From Pseudidiomarina homiensis (lineage in GTDB: Bacteria; Pseudomonadota; Gammaproteobacteria; Enterobacterales; Alteromonadaceae), in the NCBI RefSeq assembly GCF_003987225.1, contig NZ_PIPX01000001.1:1-64000 (forward strand): a stretch of 64,000 nucleotides of DNA. Direction: 5' to 3'. Under the pieces are notes generated by a model. That model ran no database searches. It saw nothing but the letters and a program-made list of their open reading frames with translations, and was not told where the DNA came from. Position 1 is the first letter of the stretch. Each line of letters opens with the position of its first letter. Of the stretch, positions 15,777 to 22,710 are shown in pieces. The translations under genes and the position numbers were made by a program.

Positions 15777-17375
15777 TTAAAGGTGGTCGAGAAATGCCTC
15801 GGCTTCGCGCACAATTTGTTGCTTTTCGCTCGCTTCACGCTTGTCCCACTGTTTTAAAATGAGTCCCATGCGGCCATTACCTTGTAGCTGTGCAAAATGG
15901 CGATCAATGAAATGCCAATAGAGCAAGTTGAAGGGGCAGGCACCGTCACCGGTTTTACGTTTCACGTCATAGTGGCAATCACCACAATAGTTCGACATTT
16001 TAGCAATGTAGCTACCGCTGGAAACATAGGGTTTGGTTGCGAGCACACCGCCATCAGCGTACTGACTCATGCCCCTGGTGTTCGGTAGTTCTACCCATTC
16101 AATCGCGTCAATATAGATCCCCAAATACCAAGCATCCACTGCATCGGGATCGCAACCCGCCAGTAACGCAAAATTACCCGTGACCATCAGGCGCTGTATG
16201 TGGTGGGCATAGGCATAATCCAATGATTGTCGAATACTTTGCGCCAAACAGTTCATCTTTGTTGCACCGGTCCAGTAAAAGTCGGGGAGCTCGCGGTGAT
16301 GGTTAAAATGATTACGTTGGCCGTAGGACGGCATGAGCTGCCAATATATGGCGCGAACAAATTCACGCCAGCCGATGATTTGGCGGACAAAACCTTCGAT
16401 CTGGTTGAGTGAGATTTCTTCGGGGCGAGCGTGCCAAGCGGCTATCGCTGTTTCTACCACGTGCCGCGGACTCAACATCTTGGTATTCAGCGCGAAGGAT
16501 AGACGCGAATGGTAGAGACTCCACTGTTGTGTAACCATGGCGTCTTGATAATCGCCAAAAGCTGGCAATAGGCGTTGCACAAAATCGCTCAACATTTGTT
16601 GGGCTTCTCGCCGACCTAATGGCCAGATAAATCGATGTACGTCGATTTCACCAATGGTTTGTACTTGTTGCGCCACCAGCATTTCGTGAATCGCGCTCAC
16701 GTCATGGGCGAAAGTCAGAGGTTTGGGGTAGTCATGTCCAGCGTTCGGTGTCTTGCGGTTGTCGTGATCAAAATTCCATTTGCCGCCGGCGGGTTTGCCA
16801 TCCGTCATCAAGTAACCGGTTTGTTTACGTACCCGCCGATAAAAGTGTTCCATGACATAATTGTCTTGGTCGCCAAACCAATCCTGCAATACCGAGCGTT
16901 GGGTGATGAAATGTTCCGAGTCAAACCATTCAACCTTAGCCTTGGTGGTGCGACACCAGTCTTGCAGTTGCTGATCGAGACGGTATTCGTCGGGTTGTTG
17001 TAGCTGCACTACTGTGGCTTGGCTGGCGCTTATGATGGCCGCTAAGTTGTCGGTGAGCGTCTGTCGGTTATCACCATTATCCAAGCTTAAGTAAAGAACG
17101 TTATGGCCTGCTCTGGCAAGGGCGCTAGCGAACCTACGCATAGCGGCGAAAAAGCCGACAATTTTTTGTATATGGTGCCGGCAATAATCGGTTTCTTGAC
17201 GTATTTCCATCAGCACAAAAAGCCGCTCAGCTGCTCTATCGTTGAACCAGCTATGGCTAGCGTTAAGCTGATCACCAAGTACGAGCGCGATGGTTTTAAA
17301 GTTGTTTTGTTGAAGCTGCGTAAGTTGTAGCAGGCAAGCGTTGCTGAGCAACGCACGGGTGGAAGGCTTGGACAT
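15777..17375 (-). CDS. Cryptochrome/photolyase family protein with [4Fe-4S] cluster (PhrB/FeS-BCP type)
   Basis: This flavoprotein is related to bacterial (6-4) photolyases and iron-sulfur cryptochromes, which repair UV (6-4) photoproducts using blue light. The 532-residue protein has an N-terminal antenna-binding Rossmann domain beginning KTIALVLGDQLN and a C-terminal FAD-binding helical domain. Four cysteines at about 376, 464, 467 and 480 (the last three in NYCGDC and GDGACPFN) have the spacing of the cluster ligands of Agrobacterium PhrB. I start at the ATG at 17375; a TTG three codons earlier is also open. Repair versus signalling role is not decided by sequence. Confidence 0.92.
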   Translation of the reverse strand: MSKPSTRALLSNACLLQLTQLQQNNFKTIALVLGDQLNASHSWFNDRAAERLFVLMEIRQETDYCRHHIQKIVGFFAAMRRFASALARAGHNVLYLSLDNGDNRQTLTDNLAAIISASQATVVQLQQPDEYRLDQQLQDWCRTTKAKVEWFDSEHFITQRSVLQDWFGDQDNYVMEHFYRRVRKQTGYLMTDGKPAGGKWNFDHDNRKTPNAGHDYPKPLTFAHDVSAIHEMLVAQQVQTIGEIDVHRFIWPLGRREAQQMLSDFVQRLLPAFGDYQDAMVTQQWSLYHSRLSFALNTKMLSPRHVVETAIAAWHARPEEISLNQIEGFVRQIIGWREFVRAIYWQLMPSYGQRNHFNHHRELPDFYWTGATKMNCLAQSIRQSLDYAYAHHIQRLMVTGNFALLAGCDPDAVDAWYLGIYIDAIEWVELPNTRGMSQYADGGVLATKPYVSSGSYIAKMSNYCGDCHYDVKRKTGDGACPFNLLYWHFIDRHFAQLQGNGRMGLILKQWDKREASEKQQIVREAEAFLDHL

Positions 17376-17561
17376 ACATGGCAACCTAATGAAAGTGTAT
17401 TACAGTAGTAGTACGTCTACGCTTTAAAATTGTGAAAAGATCGCCGTTTACGCGCTCAAACAGGCCAGATAAATACCTGAAATCGGTGGCTAAACATAGC
17501 CATAATAAGCAATATTTGGCAGAATGCACGCATACGACAAGATACCTACAGGCAGGACAAA

Positions 17562-18302
17562 ATGCAGCCAGTTAATGTGATTTGTATTAAATGGGGCCAA
17601 AAATATGGCTCTGACTACGTCAATACGCTCTACTCGATGGTGAGTCGTCATTTATCGCGACCATTTCGTTTCGTTTGTTTTACCGACGATCATGAAGGTA
17701 TCCGTGACGAAGTAGAGGTTAAGCCAATTCCTGAAGTGGGCTTTAAAGACTTTGACGAACGCAAGCCGTGGACTTTCGGGCATGGTTGGCTGAAGCTTAC
17801 CGTATTCGCTCAGCCGTTGTATGACTTAGAAGGCCCAACACTGTTTTTGGATCTTGATATTGTCATCGTGGGTAGCCTGGACGAATTCTTTGAACCTGAG
17901 GGTGAGTTCTTGGTGATCAAAGAGTGGGATAAATCGGATGCGACTGGCAACACTTCGGTTTTCCGCTTCAACATTGGTGCTCATGTTGATGCACTAGAGC
18001 ACTTGAAAGACGACCCCGTTGGCGCACGCAAGAATGTGCGTAACGAGCAGGAATATATTACCCAGTATGTCGATCGCCAGAACAAACTGATGTATTGGCC
18101 GGCGGAATGGTGCCGCAGCTTTAAACGTCACTGCTTACGCCCGTTCCCATTGAGTTTTTTCCAAGAGCCGCGTATTCCTGAGGGCGCAAAAGTTATTATT
18201 TTCCATGGTCGCCCACACCCTGACGATGCGATCGCTGGACGCAGTGGCAAGTGGTACCGCAAGGTTCTGCCAACATCGTGGATTAAAGAGTACTGGCGTT
18301 AA
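17562..18302 (+). CDS. Putative glycosyltransferase next to the Kdo transferase gene
   Basis: The 246-residue protein looks like a GT-A fold sugar transferase. It begins with the strand NVICIKWGQKYG, has a DxD-type metal/nucleotide-sugar motif in LFLDLDIVIVG near residue 101, and a C-terminal KVIIFHGRPHPDD resembling the His/Gly region of GT8-like enzymes. Donor and acceptor are unknown. It precedes the waaA-kdkA fusion by 5 bp on the same strand, so an operon and a role in LPS core sugar addition are inferred. The spacer before it (17376-17561) contains a small perfect hairpin, TGGCTA-AACA-TAGCCA, at 17487-17502. Confidence 0.75.
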   Translation: MQPVNVICIKWGQKYGSDYVNTLYSMVSRHLSRPFRFVCFTDDHEGIRDEVEVKPIPEVGFKDFDERKPWTFGHGWLKLTVFAQPLYDLEGPTLFLDLDIVIVGSLDEFFEPEGEFLVIKEWDKSDATGNTSVFRFNIGAHVDALEHLKDDPVGARKNVRNEQEYITQYVDRQNKLMYWPAEWCRSFKRHCLRPFPLSFFQEPRIPEGAKVIIFHGRPHPDDAIAGRSGKWYRKVLPTSWIKEYWR

Positions 18303-18307
18303 GGCTT

Positions 18308-20329
18308 ATGACAGCCGTTTATCGACTGCTCATTCGGCTGTTAATGCCGGCTGTTTTTGTTTACTTGTGGTTGCGGGGGCGTAAAGCTCCCGCTTACCGA
18401 GAGCGTTGGAATGAACGCTTAGCACTGCAATCCATACCTGCCCGTTATCGTCATGGTCTACTTATTCATTGTGTTTCGGTTGGCGAAACGGTTGCTGCGC
18501 GGCAACTTATCGAGACGTTGCTGAACGATTACCCGCAGGTACCGATAACGCTGTCCTCGATGACGCCAACGGCGGCCGAACTGGCCTATAAGCTATTTGG
18601 CGATCGTGTGCACCATTTGTACTTACCTTTTGATACCCCAGGTGCTATGCGCCGATTTTTCACTAACTTAGCGCCTTGTGCAGTGCTGATTTTAGAGACT
18701 GAAGTATGGCCCTGCTTTGTGCGTGAAGCGCAACGTCGCAAGGTACCTGTGCTTTTACTAAACGCCCGAATGTCGGAAAAATCATTTTCGTCGTATCACC
18801 GATTTGCCTGGTTACTGGGCCCTATTTGGCGTGAGCTCAGTTGGGTAGCAGCGCAAACTCAAGCAAGTCTTGAACGTTTTGTAGCGTTGGGCGTGCCAGC
18901 AGAACGGTCGGCGCTGCGCGGCAATCTGAAGTTTGATAGCCATGTACCCATGGCAACACTCGCAGCAGCGACGGCAATGAAACAACGCTTGGAGCGTCCG
19001 ATTTGGGTTGCCGCAAGCACTCACAAGGGCGAGGATGAGTTATTGCTGGCAGCGTTTAAGCAGATTCTTAGCGAATTGCCCACTGCGCTGCTTATTTTAG
19101 TGCCGCGACATCCAGAACGGTTTGCCAGTGTCGGTGAACTCGTTGCACGAGAAGGTTTTACCTACGTCACTCGTAGTGCCGGTACCGAGCCGCAAGCGCA
19201 ACATCAGGTTTTACTGGGCGATAGTATGGGCGAGCTCCTGTTGTGGTATGCGTTGGCTGACGTTGCTTTTGTTGGCGGCAGTCTGATTACCCGCGGCGGG
19301 CATAACCCTTTAGAGCCGGTGGCGACACACACACCAGTCGTATCAGGCCCACATGTATTTAACTTTAAAGATATTTATCAGCGGCTAACGAACGCTCGAG
19401 CAGTGCGTTTTGCGGACACTACCGAGCAAATCGCGCGACATACTCTTGAGTTGTTGTGCGATGCACAATTGCGGCACAAGTTACAGTGTGCGGCACAGCG
19501 TGAATTTGCCCAGGATCAAGGTGCAACAGCGGCAATGTTGGCCGATATCAAACAGCAGTTTTCACAGTCACAACAAGGAGTACCGCTGGCGATGCAGAAC
19601 GTAGAGGTTTTACAACCGACCAAAGGCGAGACGATTTGGTACCGACAGGACCGTTTTGGCGAGTTTTCAGCAGCATTTTTTAGTGCGGATTATTGGCGTC
19701 AACAAGGCCAAATCAAAGGTGCGGCGACGGGTCGTAGTACCGCTTGGTTTATCGCGAGCCAACCCACGGACATGCTACTACGCCATTATTACCGTGGTGG
19801 CTTGGTTGGCAAATTGAATAAAGATCGCTTCAAACGTGAGCCGGTGGCTGTGAGCCGCGCAATGGCCGAATTTGAATTATTGCTGAAGTTATCTGAGCGG
19901 GGACTGCCCGTACCGGAGCCTCTTGCAGCGCGCTATGTTAAAGCACCTGGCTGGGGCTATCGAGCGGATATTTTAGTTGCTGTGATCCCCACGGCAAAAG
20001 ATGTCTTCAAACTGCTTGGTGAACGACATTTAAGTGAGCAGGAATGGAATACGCTGGGACAAGCAATCCGCTTGCTACATGAACATCGGGTTTATCATTC
20101 TGATTTGAACTGCCATAACTTGATGCTTGATGAGGCCGGTAAGGCTTGGATCGTTGACTTTGATAAGTGTGGTTTCCGCGAGCCAGGGGACTGGACGCAA
20201 GCGAATTTAGCAAGATTACTGCGGAGCTTTAATAAAGAACTGGGTAAAGCAAAAGAGGCCAGGCACGACTTCCATTGGCAGGAAGCACGTGATTGGCCTC
20301 TGTTACTTGCTGGTTACCAAGCAAATTAG
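18308..20329 (+). CDS. waaA-kdkA: Fused Kdo transferase (WaaA) and Kdo kinase (KdkA)
   Basis: One 673-residue open frame joins two LPS inner-core enzymes normally made separately. Residues 1 to about 420 are WaaA (KdtA): an N-terminal membrane anchor, the catalytic-base motif SVGET (Glu60), ETEVWP near 130 and the sugar-nucleotide motif GGHNPLEPVA near 330-339. It transfers Kdo to lipid IVA. Residues about 435-673 are a KdkA-type kinase with HSDLNCHNLM (Asp599) and IVDFDK (Asp617, Asp619), which phosphorylates Kdo at position 4. No frameshift or stop lies between them. An internal AAGGAG plus ATG near the junction (19575-19594) might also give a free kinase. Confidence 0.93.
   Translation: MTAVYRLLIRLLMPAVFVYLWLRGRKAPAYRERWNERLALQSIPARYRHGLLIHCVSVGETVAARQLIETLLNDYPQVPITLSSMTPTAAELAYKLFGDRVHHLYLPFDTPGAMRRFFTNLAPCAVLILETEVWPCFVREAQRRKVPVLLLNARMSEKSFSSYHRFAWLLGPIWRELSWVAAQTQASLERFVALGVPAERSALRGNLKFDSHVPMATLAAATAMKQRLERPIWVAASTHKGEDELLLAAFKQILSELPTALLILVPRHPERFASVGELVAREGFTYVTRSAGTEPQAQHQVLLGDSMGELLLWYALADVAFVGGSLITRGGHNPLEPVATHTPVVSGPHVFNFKDIYQRLTNARAVRFADTTEQIARHTLELLCDAQLRHKLQCAAQREFAQDQGATAAMLADIKQQFSQSQQGVPLAMQNVEVLQPTKGETIWYRQDRFGEFSAAFFSADYWRQQGQIKGAATGRSTAWFIASQPTDMLLRHYYRGGLVGKLNKDRFKREPVAVSRAMAEFELLLKLSERGLPVPEPLAARYVKAPGWGYRADILVAVIPTAKDVFKLLGERHLSEQEWNTLGQAIRLLHEHRVYHSDLNCHNLMLDEAGKAWIVDFDKCGFREPGDWTQANLARLLRSFNKELGKAKEARHDFHWQEARDWPLLLAGYQAN
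19575..19594 (+). promoter_or_regulatory. Possible internal ribosome binding site and start for the KdkA half
   Basis: AAGGAG (19575-19580) lies 11 nt before an in-frame ATG (19592-19594, Met429 of the fusion), exactly where the kinase-like half begins. The spacing is slightly long. It may be a relic of the ancestral separate gene or a working internal start. Confidence 0.4.
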
Positions 20330-20331
20330 AC

Positions 20332-20362
20332 CAAATCGCGATGGACTTTAGTCGCGAATTTG
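20332..20362. terminator. Inverted repeat at the waaA-kdkA / proA convergent ends
   Basis: CAAATCGCGA (20332-20341) and TCGCGAATTTG (20352-20362) form a stem with one bulge and span the proA stop codon. T-tracts are weak, so termination activity is uncertain. Confidence 0.35.
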
Positions 20363-21601
20363 CCCAGTACCCGTAACTACGAATTTTTCGGTGGTCAATG
20401 CTTGTAAGCCCATTGGCCCGTAGGCATGCAGCTTACTGGTTGAGATACCGATTTCAGCACCTAAACCTAACTGACCACCATCACTGAAGCGCGATGATGC
20501 GTTCCACATAGTTACTGCTGAATCAACTTCACGGATGAAGCGTTGTGCGGTTGCTTCGTTTTCGGTGGCAATAACTTCCGTATGGCCACTACCGAAATCT
20601 TGAATGTGGGCAATCGCACCGTCAAAATCGGCAACAGTTCGTACGGCAATCTCAAGCGCCAAGTACTCTTCACCAAAAGCATCGTCAGCAATCACATCAG
20701 CATCGGCAAAGTAGTGTGCAGAGGCTTTGTCACTGTGGATTTTGACGCCTTTCTCTTGCAAGGCTTGCGCAGCCATTGGCAAGAATTTAGCGGCAATCTC
20801 AGAGTGTACCAGCAAGCCTTCGAGCGCGTTACAAACGCCTGTACGCTGAGTTTTACCGTTCAGTAACAAGTTCAACGCTTTATCTAGGTCCGTATCTTTA
20901 TCGACATACAAGTGGCAAACACCCTTGTAGTGCTGGATGACAGGGATCTTACTGTTGTCGCTAACAAAGTGGATCAAACCTTCCCCGCCACGCGGAATAA
21001 CCAAGTCGATGTACTGATCTTGCTGGAGCAGCTCCAGCATTAGCTCGCGGTCAGGGGTCGGTACCACGGTAATTACATCTTCAGGTAGACCACTTTCGCG
21101 CAGGGCCTCATGCAAGGCTGCAGCAATCGCTTTACTACTTTCAATCGCTTCACGACCACAGCGCAAGATAACCGCGTTGCCTGATTTGAAGCACAGTGCG
21201 CCTGCATCGGCAGTTACATTTGGTCGCGCTTCGTAAATCATACAGATAACACCTAATGGGATTCGCATCTTTTCAACTTCAATGCCATTAGGACGAGTAG
21301 TGAACGGCATACGCTCACCTACTGGATCTTTGAGTTCGATGATTTCTTCAATTGCGGTTGCCATTCCTTCGATGCGTTCAGGGTTGAGCTGCAATCGATC
21401 CAGCATGGAATCCGACAGTTGCTTTTCGCGGCCAGCGGCCATGTCTTTTTCATTTACCGCAAGAATTTCATCTTGATGTTTGCGAATGGTATCTGCCATT
21501 TTTTGTAAAACAGCATTTTTTTGCTCTTCGCTCAGTGTTGCTACTGCCCGTGCCGCTACTGCCGCACGTTTTGAAATTTCAGTTGCTACGGAGTTACTCA
21601 T
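20348..21601 (-). CDS. proA: Gamma-glutamyl phosphate reductase
   Basis: ProA reduces gamma-glutamyl phosphate with NADPH to glutamate-5-semialdehyde, the second step of proline synthesis. The 417 residues equal the E. coli length and show the ALDH-like fold with IPLGVICMIYEARPNVT near 113-129, the catalytic Cys in KTQRTGVCNALE near 255, and the C-terminal GPMGLQALTTEKFVV. Its ATG overlaps the proB stop by 4 bases, the usual proBA operon in which kinase and reductase act as a complex that shields the unstable phosphate intermediate. Confidence 0.97.
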   Translation of the reverse strand: MSNSVATEISKRAAVAARAVATLSEEQKNAVLQKMADTIRKHQDEILAVNEKDMAAGREKQLSDSMLDRLQLNPERIEGMATAIEEIIELKDPVGERMPFTTRPNGIEVEKMRIPLGVICMIYEARPNVTADAGALCFKSGNAVILRCGREAIESSKAIAAALHEALRESGLPEDVITVVPTPDRELMLELLQQDQYIDLVIPRGGEGLIHFVSDNSKIPVIQHYKGVCHLYVDKDTDLDKALNLLLNGKTQRTGVCNALEGLLVHSEIAAKFLPMAAQALQEKGVKIHSDKASAHYFADADVIADDAFGEEYLALEIAVRTVADFDGAIAHIQDFGSGHTEVIATENEATAQRFIREVDSAVTMWNASSRFSDGGQLGLGAEIGISTSKLHAYGPMGLQALTTEKFVVTGTGQIRD

Positions 21602-22710
21602 ACATCCTCCAATATCATTAAATCGTTACTTTCGATGACTTCGGTGATCGGGCTGTAGCCATACTGTTCAGCAATGTGGCTAACTTCTTGACCTTTGATG
21701 TGCAGAAGCTCGTGGGAGCTATATTGGCAAATCCCTTTGGCCACAGCCTCTGCATTTTCACCATTACGAATGACTACTGCGTCGCCGCGATTAAAGTCAC
21801 CTTGAACGTCAACAATGCCTGTAGTGGTTAACGCTTCCCCGGCGAGCAAACTGTCCACGGTAGCACTATCGACCACAATTTCACCTTGTGATACTAACGT
21901 ATGGCGCAACCAGTGTTTCTTATTACTCATTGGGTCTTGCTGACGTTTAAATAGAGTACCTGGGTTCTCACCCTGCAACATCAATTCAAAGGTCTCACCT
22001 TTACGGCCATTGACGATATAGGTATCGATACCGTGCGATGTCGCTTTTTCAGCTGCTTCAATCTTGGTACGCATTCCACCTGTTGCGATTTTGTTCGTGG
22101 TACCGCCTGCAAGTGCGAAAATTTCCTCGGTGATTTCATCGACCACGGGAATTTTTTTCGCGTCCGGCTTCACCCGCGGATCGGCATCGAACAAACCGTC
22201 GATGTCTGAGCAAATAAACAACGCATCAGCATCAACTAAGGTCGCGACCATCGCTGCTAGGTTGTCGTTGTCACCTACTTTCATTTCGTCGGTTGCTAGA
22301 GCATCGTTTTCGTTCACAATCGGTAATACATCGTGTTCTAACAATGTGTGCAAGGTGTTCCGAATACTCACATATCTAGCGCGGTCACGTAAGTCACCAT
22401 GAGTCATCAGCACCTGAGCGCACGGGAAGTCAAAAAAACGTGACCAATTGGCCATCATGTCATTTTGTCCGACCGCCGCCATAGCTTTCTTTACGGTGAC
22501 TGGGATGGTATCGCTATCATAAGCGATATGTTTGCGTCCGGCCGCAGCGCTGCCGGATGAAACTAAGACTACTTCTTGCCCACGTTCGTGGCACTCTATA
22601 ATGAAGCGGGCAATAGCTAGTAAGTATTTAGTGCTCGTTCCTGTTTCGTCTGGCGCAATCAAAGCGCTGCCTACTTTTACCACGGCGCGCTGCCAGGAAG
22701 GCATTTTCAT
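21598..22710 (-). CDS. proB: Glutamate 5-kinase
   Basis: ProB phosphorylates glutamate with ATP, the committed and normally proline-inhibited step of proline synthesis. The 370 residues comprise an amino acid kinase domain (about 1-255), with VVKVGSALI at 10-18, VSSGSAAAGR near 50 and NENDALAT near 134. A C-terminal PUA domain (about 280-370) completes it. GGGAG is placed 5 nt before the ATG. It is coupled to proA by a 4-base overlap. Confidence 0.97.
   Translation of the reverse strand: MKMPSWQRAVVKVGSALIAPDETGTSTKYLLAIARFIIECHERGQEVVLVSSGSAAAGRKHIAYDSDTIPVTVKKAMAAVGQNDMMANWSRFFDFPCAQVLMTHGDLRDRARYVSIRNTLHTLLEHDVLPIVNENDALATDEMKVGDNDNLAAMVATLVDADALFICSDIDGLFDADPRVKPDAKKIPVVDEITEEIFALAGGTTNKIATGGMRTKIEAAEKATSHGIDTYIVNGRKGETFELMLQGENPGTLFKRQQDPMSNKKHWLRHTLVSQGEIVVDSATVDSLLAGEALTTTGIVDVQGDFNRGDAVVIRNGENAEAVAKGICQYSSHELLHIKGQEVSHIAEQYGYSPITEVIESNDLMILEDV

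Follow-up and report, generated by a model that had tools for sequence, protein, structure and literature searches.

The window, a 64,000-nucleotide stretch of the Pseudidiomarina homiensis genome, contains a gene that most probably encodes a two-domain enzyme in which a WaaA domain adds one Kdo and a tethered KdkA domain phosphorylates it at O-4 (Table 1). We put the probability of this reading at about 0.88, from the sequence and from analogy with known enzymes; the function is very likely the one given in the original prediction, and we infer both activities for this protein in this species. The WaaA domain would transfer one Kdo from CMP-Kdo to lipid IVA, the tethered KdkA domain would then phosphorylate that Kdo at O-4, and the product, a phosphorylated Kdo-lipid A precursor, would be used by later enzymes. 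By way of proposal, the joining of the domains may speed the hand-over and may keep scarce any Kdo still lacking its phosphate, whose O-4 could otherwise accept a second Kdo.

Table 1. Features of the waaA-kdkA locus (positions are those of the window).
Feature	Position	Strand	Remarks
PF04244 gene (photolyase-related)	15777-17384	-	Pfam
ORF 'GT246', 246 aa, DLD motif 97-99	17562..18302	+	candidate Kdo-acting sugar transferase; stop 5 bp before fusion start
waaA-kdkA fusion gene	18308..20329	+	673 aa; both NCBIfam equivalogs above cut-off; sole genome match
WaaA (predicted Kdo transferase) part	18308..19543	+	residues 1-412; predicted N-terminal helix 3-23
Glu60 of SVGET (57-61)	18485..18487	+	same in 91/91 fused proteins
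Linker, poorly conserved	19544..19627	+	about residues 413-440
KdkA (predicted Kdo kinase) part	19628..20326	+	residues 441-673; PF06293 + NF002475
Kinase catalytic-loop motif HSDLNCHNLM (597-606)	20096..20125	+	D599, N604 in 91/91
Kinase DFD motif IVDFDK (615-620)	20150..20167	+	D617, D619 in 91/91

Translation of positions 18308-20329 gives one frame of 673 residues with no internal stops, as originally predicted, and each half is recognized by the profiles of its own family. In the N-terminal half, the Pfam families PF04413 and PF00534 match residues 32-210 (200.2 bits, E 2.6e-59) and 285-397, and the NCBIfam WaaA equivalog NF004388 spans residues 3-420 with 490.1 bits against a cut-off of 438. 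The C-terminal half had been assigned to the KdkA family, and this assignment holds: the KdkA equivalog NF002475 matches residues 438-672 with 264.6 bits against a cut-off of 142, and PF06293 matches residues 461-670 (141.2 bits, E 4e-41). Protein kinases also turned up in a sequence search, but weakly (E 0.0013 and higher). The catalytic motifs described at the outset as intact are all present, namely SVGET with Glu60 (which we take to be the catalytic residue of WaaA), HSDLNCHNLM and IVDFDK. Nine residues (E60, H239, R267, H268, N333, D599, N604, D617 and D619) were checked across a set of 91 fused proteins, all of them distinct, and every one is invariant; both Pfam families are present in each of the 45 members of this set that were scanned. 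The least conserved block in the 91 proteins is residues 421-440 (mean conservation 0.15, vs 0.41-0.86 elsewhere), and aligned positions 411 and 461 are separated by 37-63 residues. The linker delimited here is close to the boundary of residues 421-434 first suggested.

An AlphaFold2 model of the whole fused protein, for which 45 of the 91 sequences served as input, has a pLDDT of 91.1 and a pTM of 0.84. Its residues 27-420 share the fold of the monofunctional WaaA of Aquifex aeolicus (2xci; Z 33.9, rmsd 5.2, 354 aligned residues, 26% identity, by VIA-align), and in a fold comparison the WaaA part matches 4bfc with Z 30.2; unlike the fusion, 2xci is a chain of 354 residues without a kinase domain. 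In a fold search with the whole protein, the matches listed all fell on the WaaA part and none on the KdkA part. Relative to a homologue that is 96% identical, dN/dS is 0.05 in the WaaA part and 0.10 in the KdkA part; in comparisons with four relatives further away, the synonymous sites of both domains are at or near saturation. A kinase half that has drifted to another substrate, or has become inactive, is very improbable, given the invariance of its motif residues in 91/91 proteins, an equivalog score well over the cut-off, this low dN/dS and the presence of Kdo-4-phosphate in the lipooligosaccharide (LOS) of Idiomarina zobellii (PMC9695755).

The two domains are very unlikely to owe their union to a sequencing accident. 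A stop or frameshift between the halves was sought and none was found, 25 other genomes of the genus give a full-length match without stops, and error as the source of the fusion was rejected on finding 91 genomes that each carry one uninterrupted fused ORF. The rest of the 2.61 Mb genome (99.95% complete) holds no second match to the fusion. A promoter and terminator scan of positions 17350-20450 yielded sites in about the numbers obtained from shuffles (5 vs 3.9; 5 vs 3.6). Downstream on the minus strand, at 20348-22710, lies an aldehyde dehydrogenase family gene, proA-like, overlapping a proB-like ORF; both names are our presumption.

The WaaA/KdkA enzyme pair is already known. Haemophilus influenzae, Vibrio cholerae and Bordetella pertussis possess a separate WaaA (KdtA) and KdkA of the same two families, with the same predicted product, phosphorylated Kdo1-lipid A (PMC3178793 and PMC10743493); there are two proteins there but one here, where we infer the function. 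The one-protein form is not found in print: literature searches, with most subscription papers outside reach, returned no published report of a waaA-kdkA fusion, a search pairing KdkA with Idiomarina found nothing, and passages on Kdo kinases in a 2005 overview of the architectures of bacterial kinases describe no such fusion (PMC1262709). The KdtA of V. cholerae is monofunctional: its single Kdo is phosphorylated by KdkA, and LpxL depends on the phosphate of the resulting phosphorylated Kdo-lipid IVA (PMC3178793). Both kdtA and kdkA resisted inactivation in B. pertussis, where they are essential (PMC10743493).

The single phosphorylated Kdo of the original prediction agrees with the LOS of I. 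zobellii, a heptose-free pentasaccharide with one alpha-Kdo bearing phosphate at O-4 and alpha-Glc at O-5, followed by Neu (PMC9695755). One Kdo with phosphate at O-4 is what the fusion would be expected to yield, and 18 of the 19 genomes drawn from that genus carry the fusion; the agreement is thus at the level of the genus rather than of this protein. Kdo-4-phosphate is also found in the LOS of Kangiella japonica, together with heptose (PMC12472108), and is no hallmark of fusions. Nor is the fusion needed for function, since the two genes are separate in most of the genus labelled g11 in our draws, in one Idiomarina genome (G289) and in many relatives. A different explanation for the single Kdo, which we consider unlikely, is that the WaaA half intrinsically adds two Kdo residues and the tethered kinase caps O-4 first. 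The second Kdo would occupy position 4, the same as the phosphate (PMC10743493), and a covalent tether with 37-63 residues between positions 411 and 461 would hold the kinase beside each new product; on the other side, V. cholerae WaaA is described as monofunctional (PMC3178793) and relatives with separate genes manage without a tether. A WaaA domain that adds one Kdo, followed by phosphorylation at O-4, remains the preferred reading.

In the genus Pseudidiomarina, the fusion is present in 26/26 genomes, that of P. homiensis included. A search of named genomes returned seven loci, of which five are full-length (58-96% identity) and belong to Pseudidiomarina, and two are distant and partial. 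The original prediction had pointed to the taxonomic spread of two-domain proteins; mapped here, it takes in one family, with a fused gene in 85 of 345 genomes drawn from the family (matches verified as single ORFs). By genus, designated by our draw labels, these comprise g1 (20/20), g28, which is read as Idiomarina (18/19), g18 (21/21), g75 (19/20), g72 (5/6), g11 (1/17) and g78 (1/1); G324 (g75) and G196 (g72) have no match at E 1e-20. Across g1, g28, g18, g75 and g72, the fusion is kept in 83 of the 84 drawn genomes with a match. Draws from the order (345 genomes, 316 outside the family), the class (229, 227 outside) and the phylum (150, 146 outside) contained, among the matches listed, none outside the family that covers both halves in one frame, though the draws overlap and the weakest matches fall outside those listed, so that a very divergent fusion could escape. 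Three matches outside the family extend past residue 461 (G466 to residue 482, G687 to 529, G988 to 465); each runs through 2-3 stop codons, and they were therefore not counted as fusions. No record in a plasmid collection (34 records) covers 80% of the query, and the best 30 of the 34 end at residue 421 or earlier. WaaA matches in G984 (C73:1400-2638), G1004 (C66:6034-7263) and G755 (C4:174638-175885) lie inside open frames of 1299, 816 and 848 codons respectively, possibly representing other WaaA fusions or open flanking sequence. Judged from these sequences, the fusion is widely distributed within a single family, where it recurs.

Genus g11 retains an arrangement in which waaA and kdkA are separate but in tandem (13/17 loci); one further locus is fused and three lack kdkA in the stretch fetched. 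The two ORFs overlap by 4 bp or abut at 6/17 loci (L070, L120, L121, L123, L125 and L126), and in G365 the start of kdkA follows the waaA stop codon directly and in frame. On trees of 60/118 KdkA rows and 63/121 WaaA rows, the fused label requires four and five changes respectively. A single clade of all fused proteins, with the split pair of G289 held together with the fused rows, is rejected by AU tests on these trees (p 3e-99 for WaaA, 1.4e-5 for KdkA), so fusion or fission has recurred. The KdkA tree groups the two big fused clades with a support of 91 (not starred), and holding Idiomarina, Pseudidiomarina and g11 together on it gives a p-AU of 0.032. The WaaA tree places the mostly unfused g11 beside Idiomarina and Pseudidiomarina, and constraining the big fused set to one group on that tree gives a p-AU of 0.011. 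G273 (inside g11) and G111 (g78) fall apart from the main fused group. On both trees, G289, the one drawn Idiomarina with two genes, is surrounded by relatives with the fusion, a position suggestive of fission; an assembly error would be the alternative. At this locus (L063, G289:C3:28300-36300), the homologue of the ORF upstream of the fusion is absent, and HldE and a GT9 heptosyltransferase adjoin the waaA/kdkA pair.

These patterns bear on what the union itself contributes. A serious contender, whose odds we place somewhat below even, is that the joining is neutral: tandem genes would have lost the stop codon between them, with no gain from coupling. This account is compatible with the two-domain enzyme proposed above. 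It accords with the overlapping or abutting genes in g11, with the four or five label changes, which include the apparent fission of G289, and with a linker that is unconserved in the fused proteins, but sits less easily with retention of the fusion in all but one of the matching genomes of g1, g28, g18, g75 and g72. The two-domain enzyme acting on Kdo is the preferred reading under either history.

The ORF upstream of the fusion, here called GT246, has a homologue in 26/26 Pseudidiomarina and 18/18 fused Idiomarina, each time with its end 4-12 bp short of the aligned fusion start. In other fused genera, among the loci where both were seen, 2 have the homologue 17 bp upstream and 11 have it 0.9-1.9 kb upstream. 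Four g11 genomes (G183, G258, G273 and G285) carry it on another contig or more than 0.5 Mb from waaA, which counts against a fixed link to waaA. The protein has no NCBIfam assignment and no Pfam match at E up to 1, the GT9 family included, and 24 members of its family yield no glycosyltransferase family among their Pfam matches at E up to 1, hence no sequence match to GT8 (PF01501, which we take to be its Pfam family). D97 and D99 are conserved in 24/24 members. A moderately confident structure model (pLDDT 76.4) retrieved glycogenin, LARGE1 and LgtC with Foldseek (E 2.7e-9 to 1.5e-7, mostly glycogenin, among the best 50 matches listed), and a PDB profile search gave three matches, the best a galactosyltransferase at E 0.086. 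GT246 thus models as a GT8-like fold with a DxD motif: it shares the fold match and the conserved DLD motif with GT8-fold transferases such as glycogenin and LgtC, but differs in having no Pfam match and a model of limited pLDDT, and is said to work like GT8 rather than filed as GT8. GT8 enzymes are retaining, and hence alpha-forming. Homologues also occur directly beside a stand-alone waaA in G053 (L030, 733-1452), G135, G269, G290 and G364; G053 and G135 have no KdkA match at E 1e-20. A weaker subfamily with 40-44% identity is found in G113, G198 and G217 (g80) and in G269 and G364 (g5), and a partial homologue (40% identity) flanks waaA in another family of the class (G740, L178, 1-596, minus strand).

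GT246 and the enzymes of the heptose route are distributed in a nearly exclusive manner. In the heptosyltransferase route, HldE and GT9 provide the O-5 sugar of Kdo, and it is this role that we propose for GT246; the P. homiensis genome differs in that a search for GT9 gave no match and one for HldE nothing above cut-off. Within the family draw (345 genomes), a GT246 homologue is present in 64 and a GT9 protein in 208, both at E 1e-10. None of the 61 genomes with GT246 at 53% identity or more also has GT9 (Fisher p 1e-29, kinship ignored); with weak homologues counted, the overlap is 3/64 (p 2e-25), all three being genomes of g80 with 42-44% identity (G113, G198 and G217), which were set apart after seeing the identity gap to the next genome (53%). 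HldE is found in 0/61 of the close-GT246 genomes, 10 having none above cut-off and 51 no match at E 1e-40, and is above cut-off in all 28 GT9 genomes tested (7, including one outside the family, plus 21), 27 of which belong to the 208 of the draw. Neither GT9 nor GT246 is present in 76/345 genomes, so other solutions exist; these include 12/17 g11 and 9/21 g18 genomes.

On a tree of 110 of the 121 WaaA rows (the 11 dropped belong to genomes absent from the GT246 and GT9 searches), GT246 presence requires seven changes and GT9 nine. For GT246 vs GT9, seven independent pairs show on average 0 differing the same way, 3.1 the opposite way and 3.9 without difference (sign test median p 0.25). Four independent pairs compare fusion with GT246 (same way 2.2, opposite 0.1, p 0.5) and fusion with GT9 (same way 0.2, opposite 1.7, p 0.5); four to seven pairs are too few for any paired control to reach significance. 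The fusion was rejected as a mark of a heptose-free core: the 85 fused genomes comprise 52 with GT246, 23 with GT9 and 10 with neither. GT246 may nevertheless replace the GT9 heptosyltransferase, supplying the next sugar where heptose is lacking, and would by this account add the O-5 sugar, which is glucose in I. zobellii. A more elaborate proposal, which we advance tentatively and rate as rather doubtful, is a compact heptose-free inner-core line in which the fusion would place and cap Kdo and hand it over directly, GT246 would add alpha-glucose to O-5 in place of the heptosyltransferase and the heptose pathway, and the switch would have occurred more than once in the family.

In this marine bacterium, the first two steps of core synthesis, Kdo addition and then phosphorylation, are apparently carried out by one fused protein. 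As a natural and recurrent fusion, it represents a ready construct for asking whether KdkA acts on a product still bound to WaaA, and whether a 'monofunctional' WaaA is intrinsically so or has this property imposed by the kinase. Its neighbour GT246 is possibly more interesting than the fusion itself, being a candidate transferase for beginning a core without heptose, of the kind found in I. zobellii.
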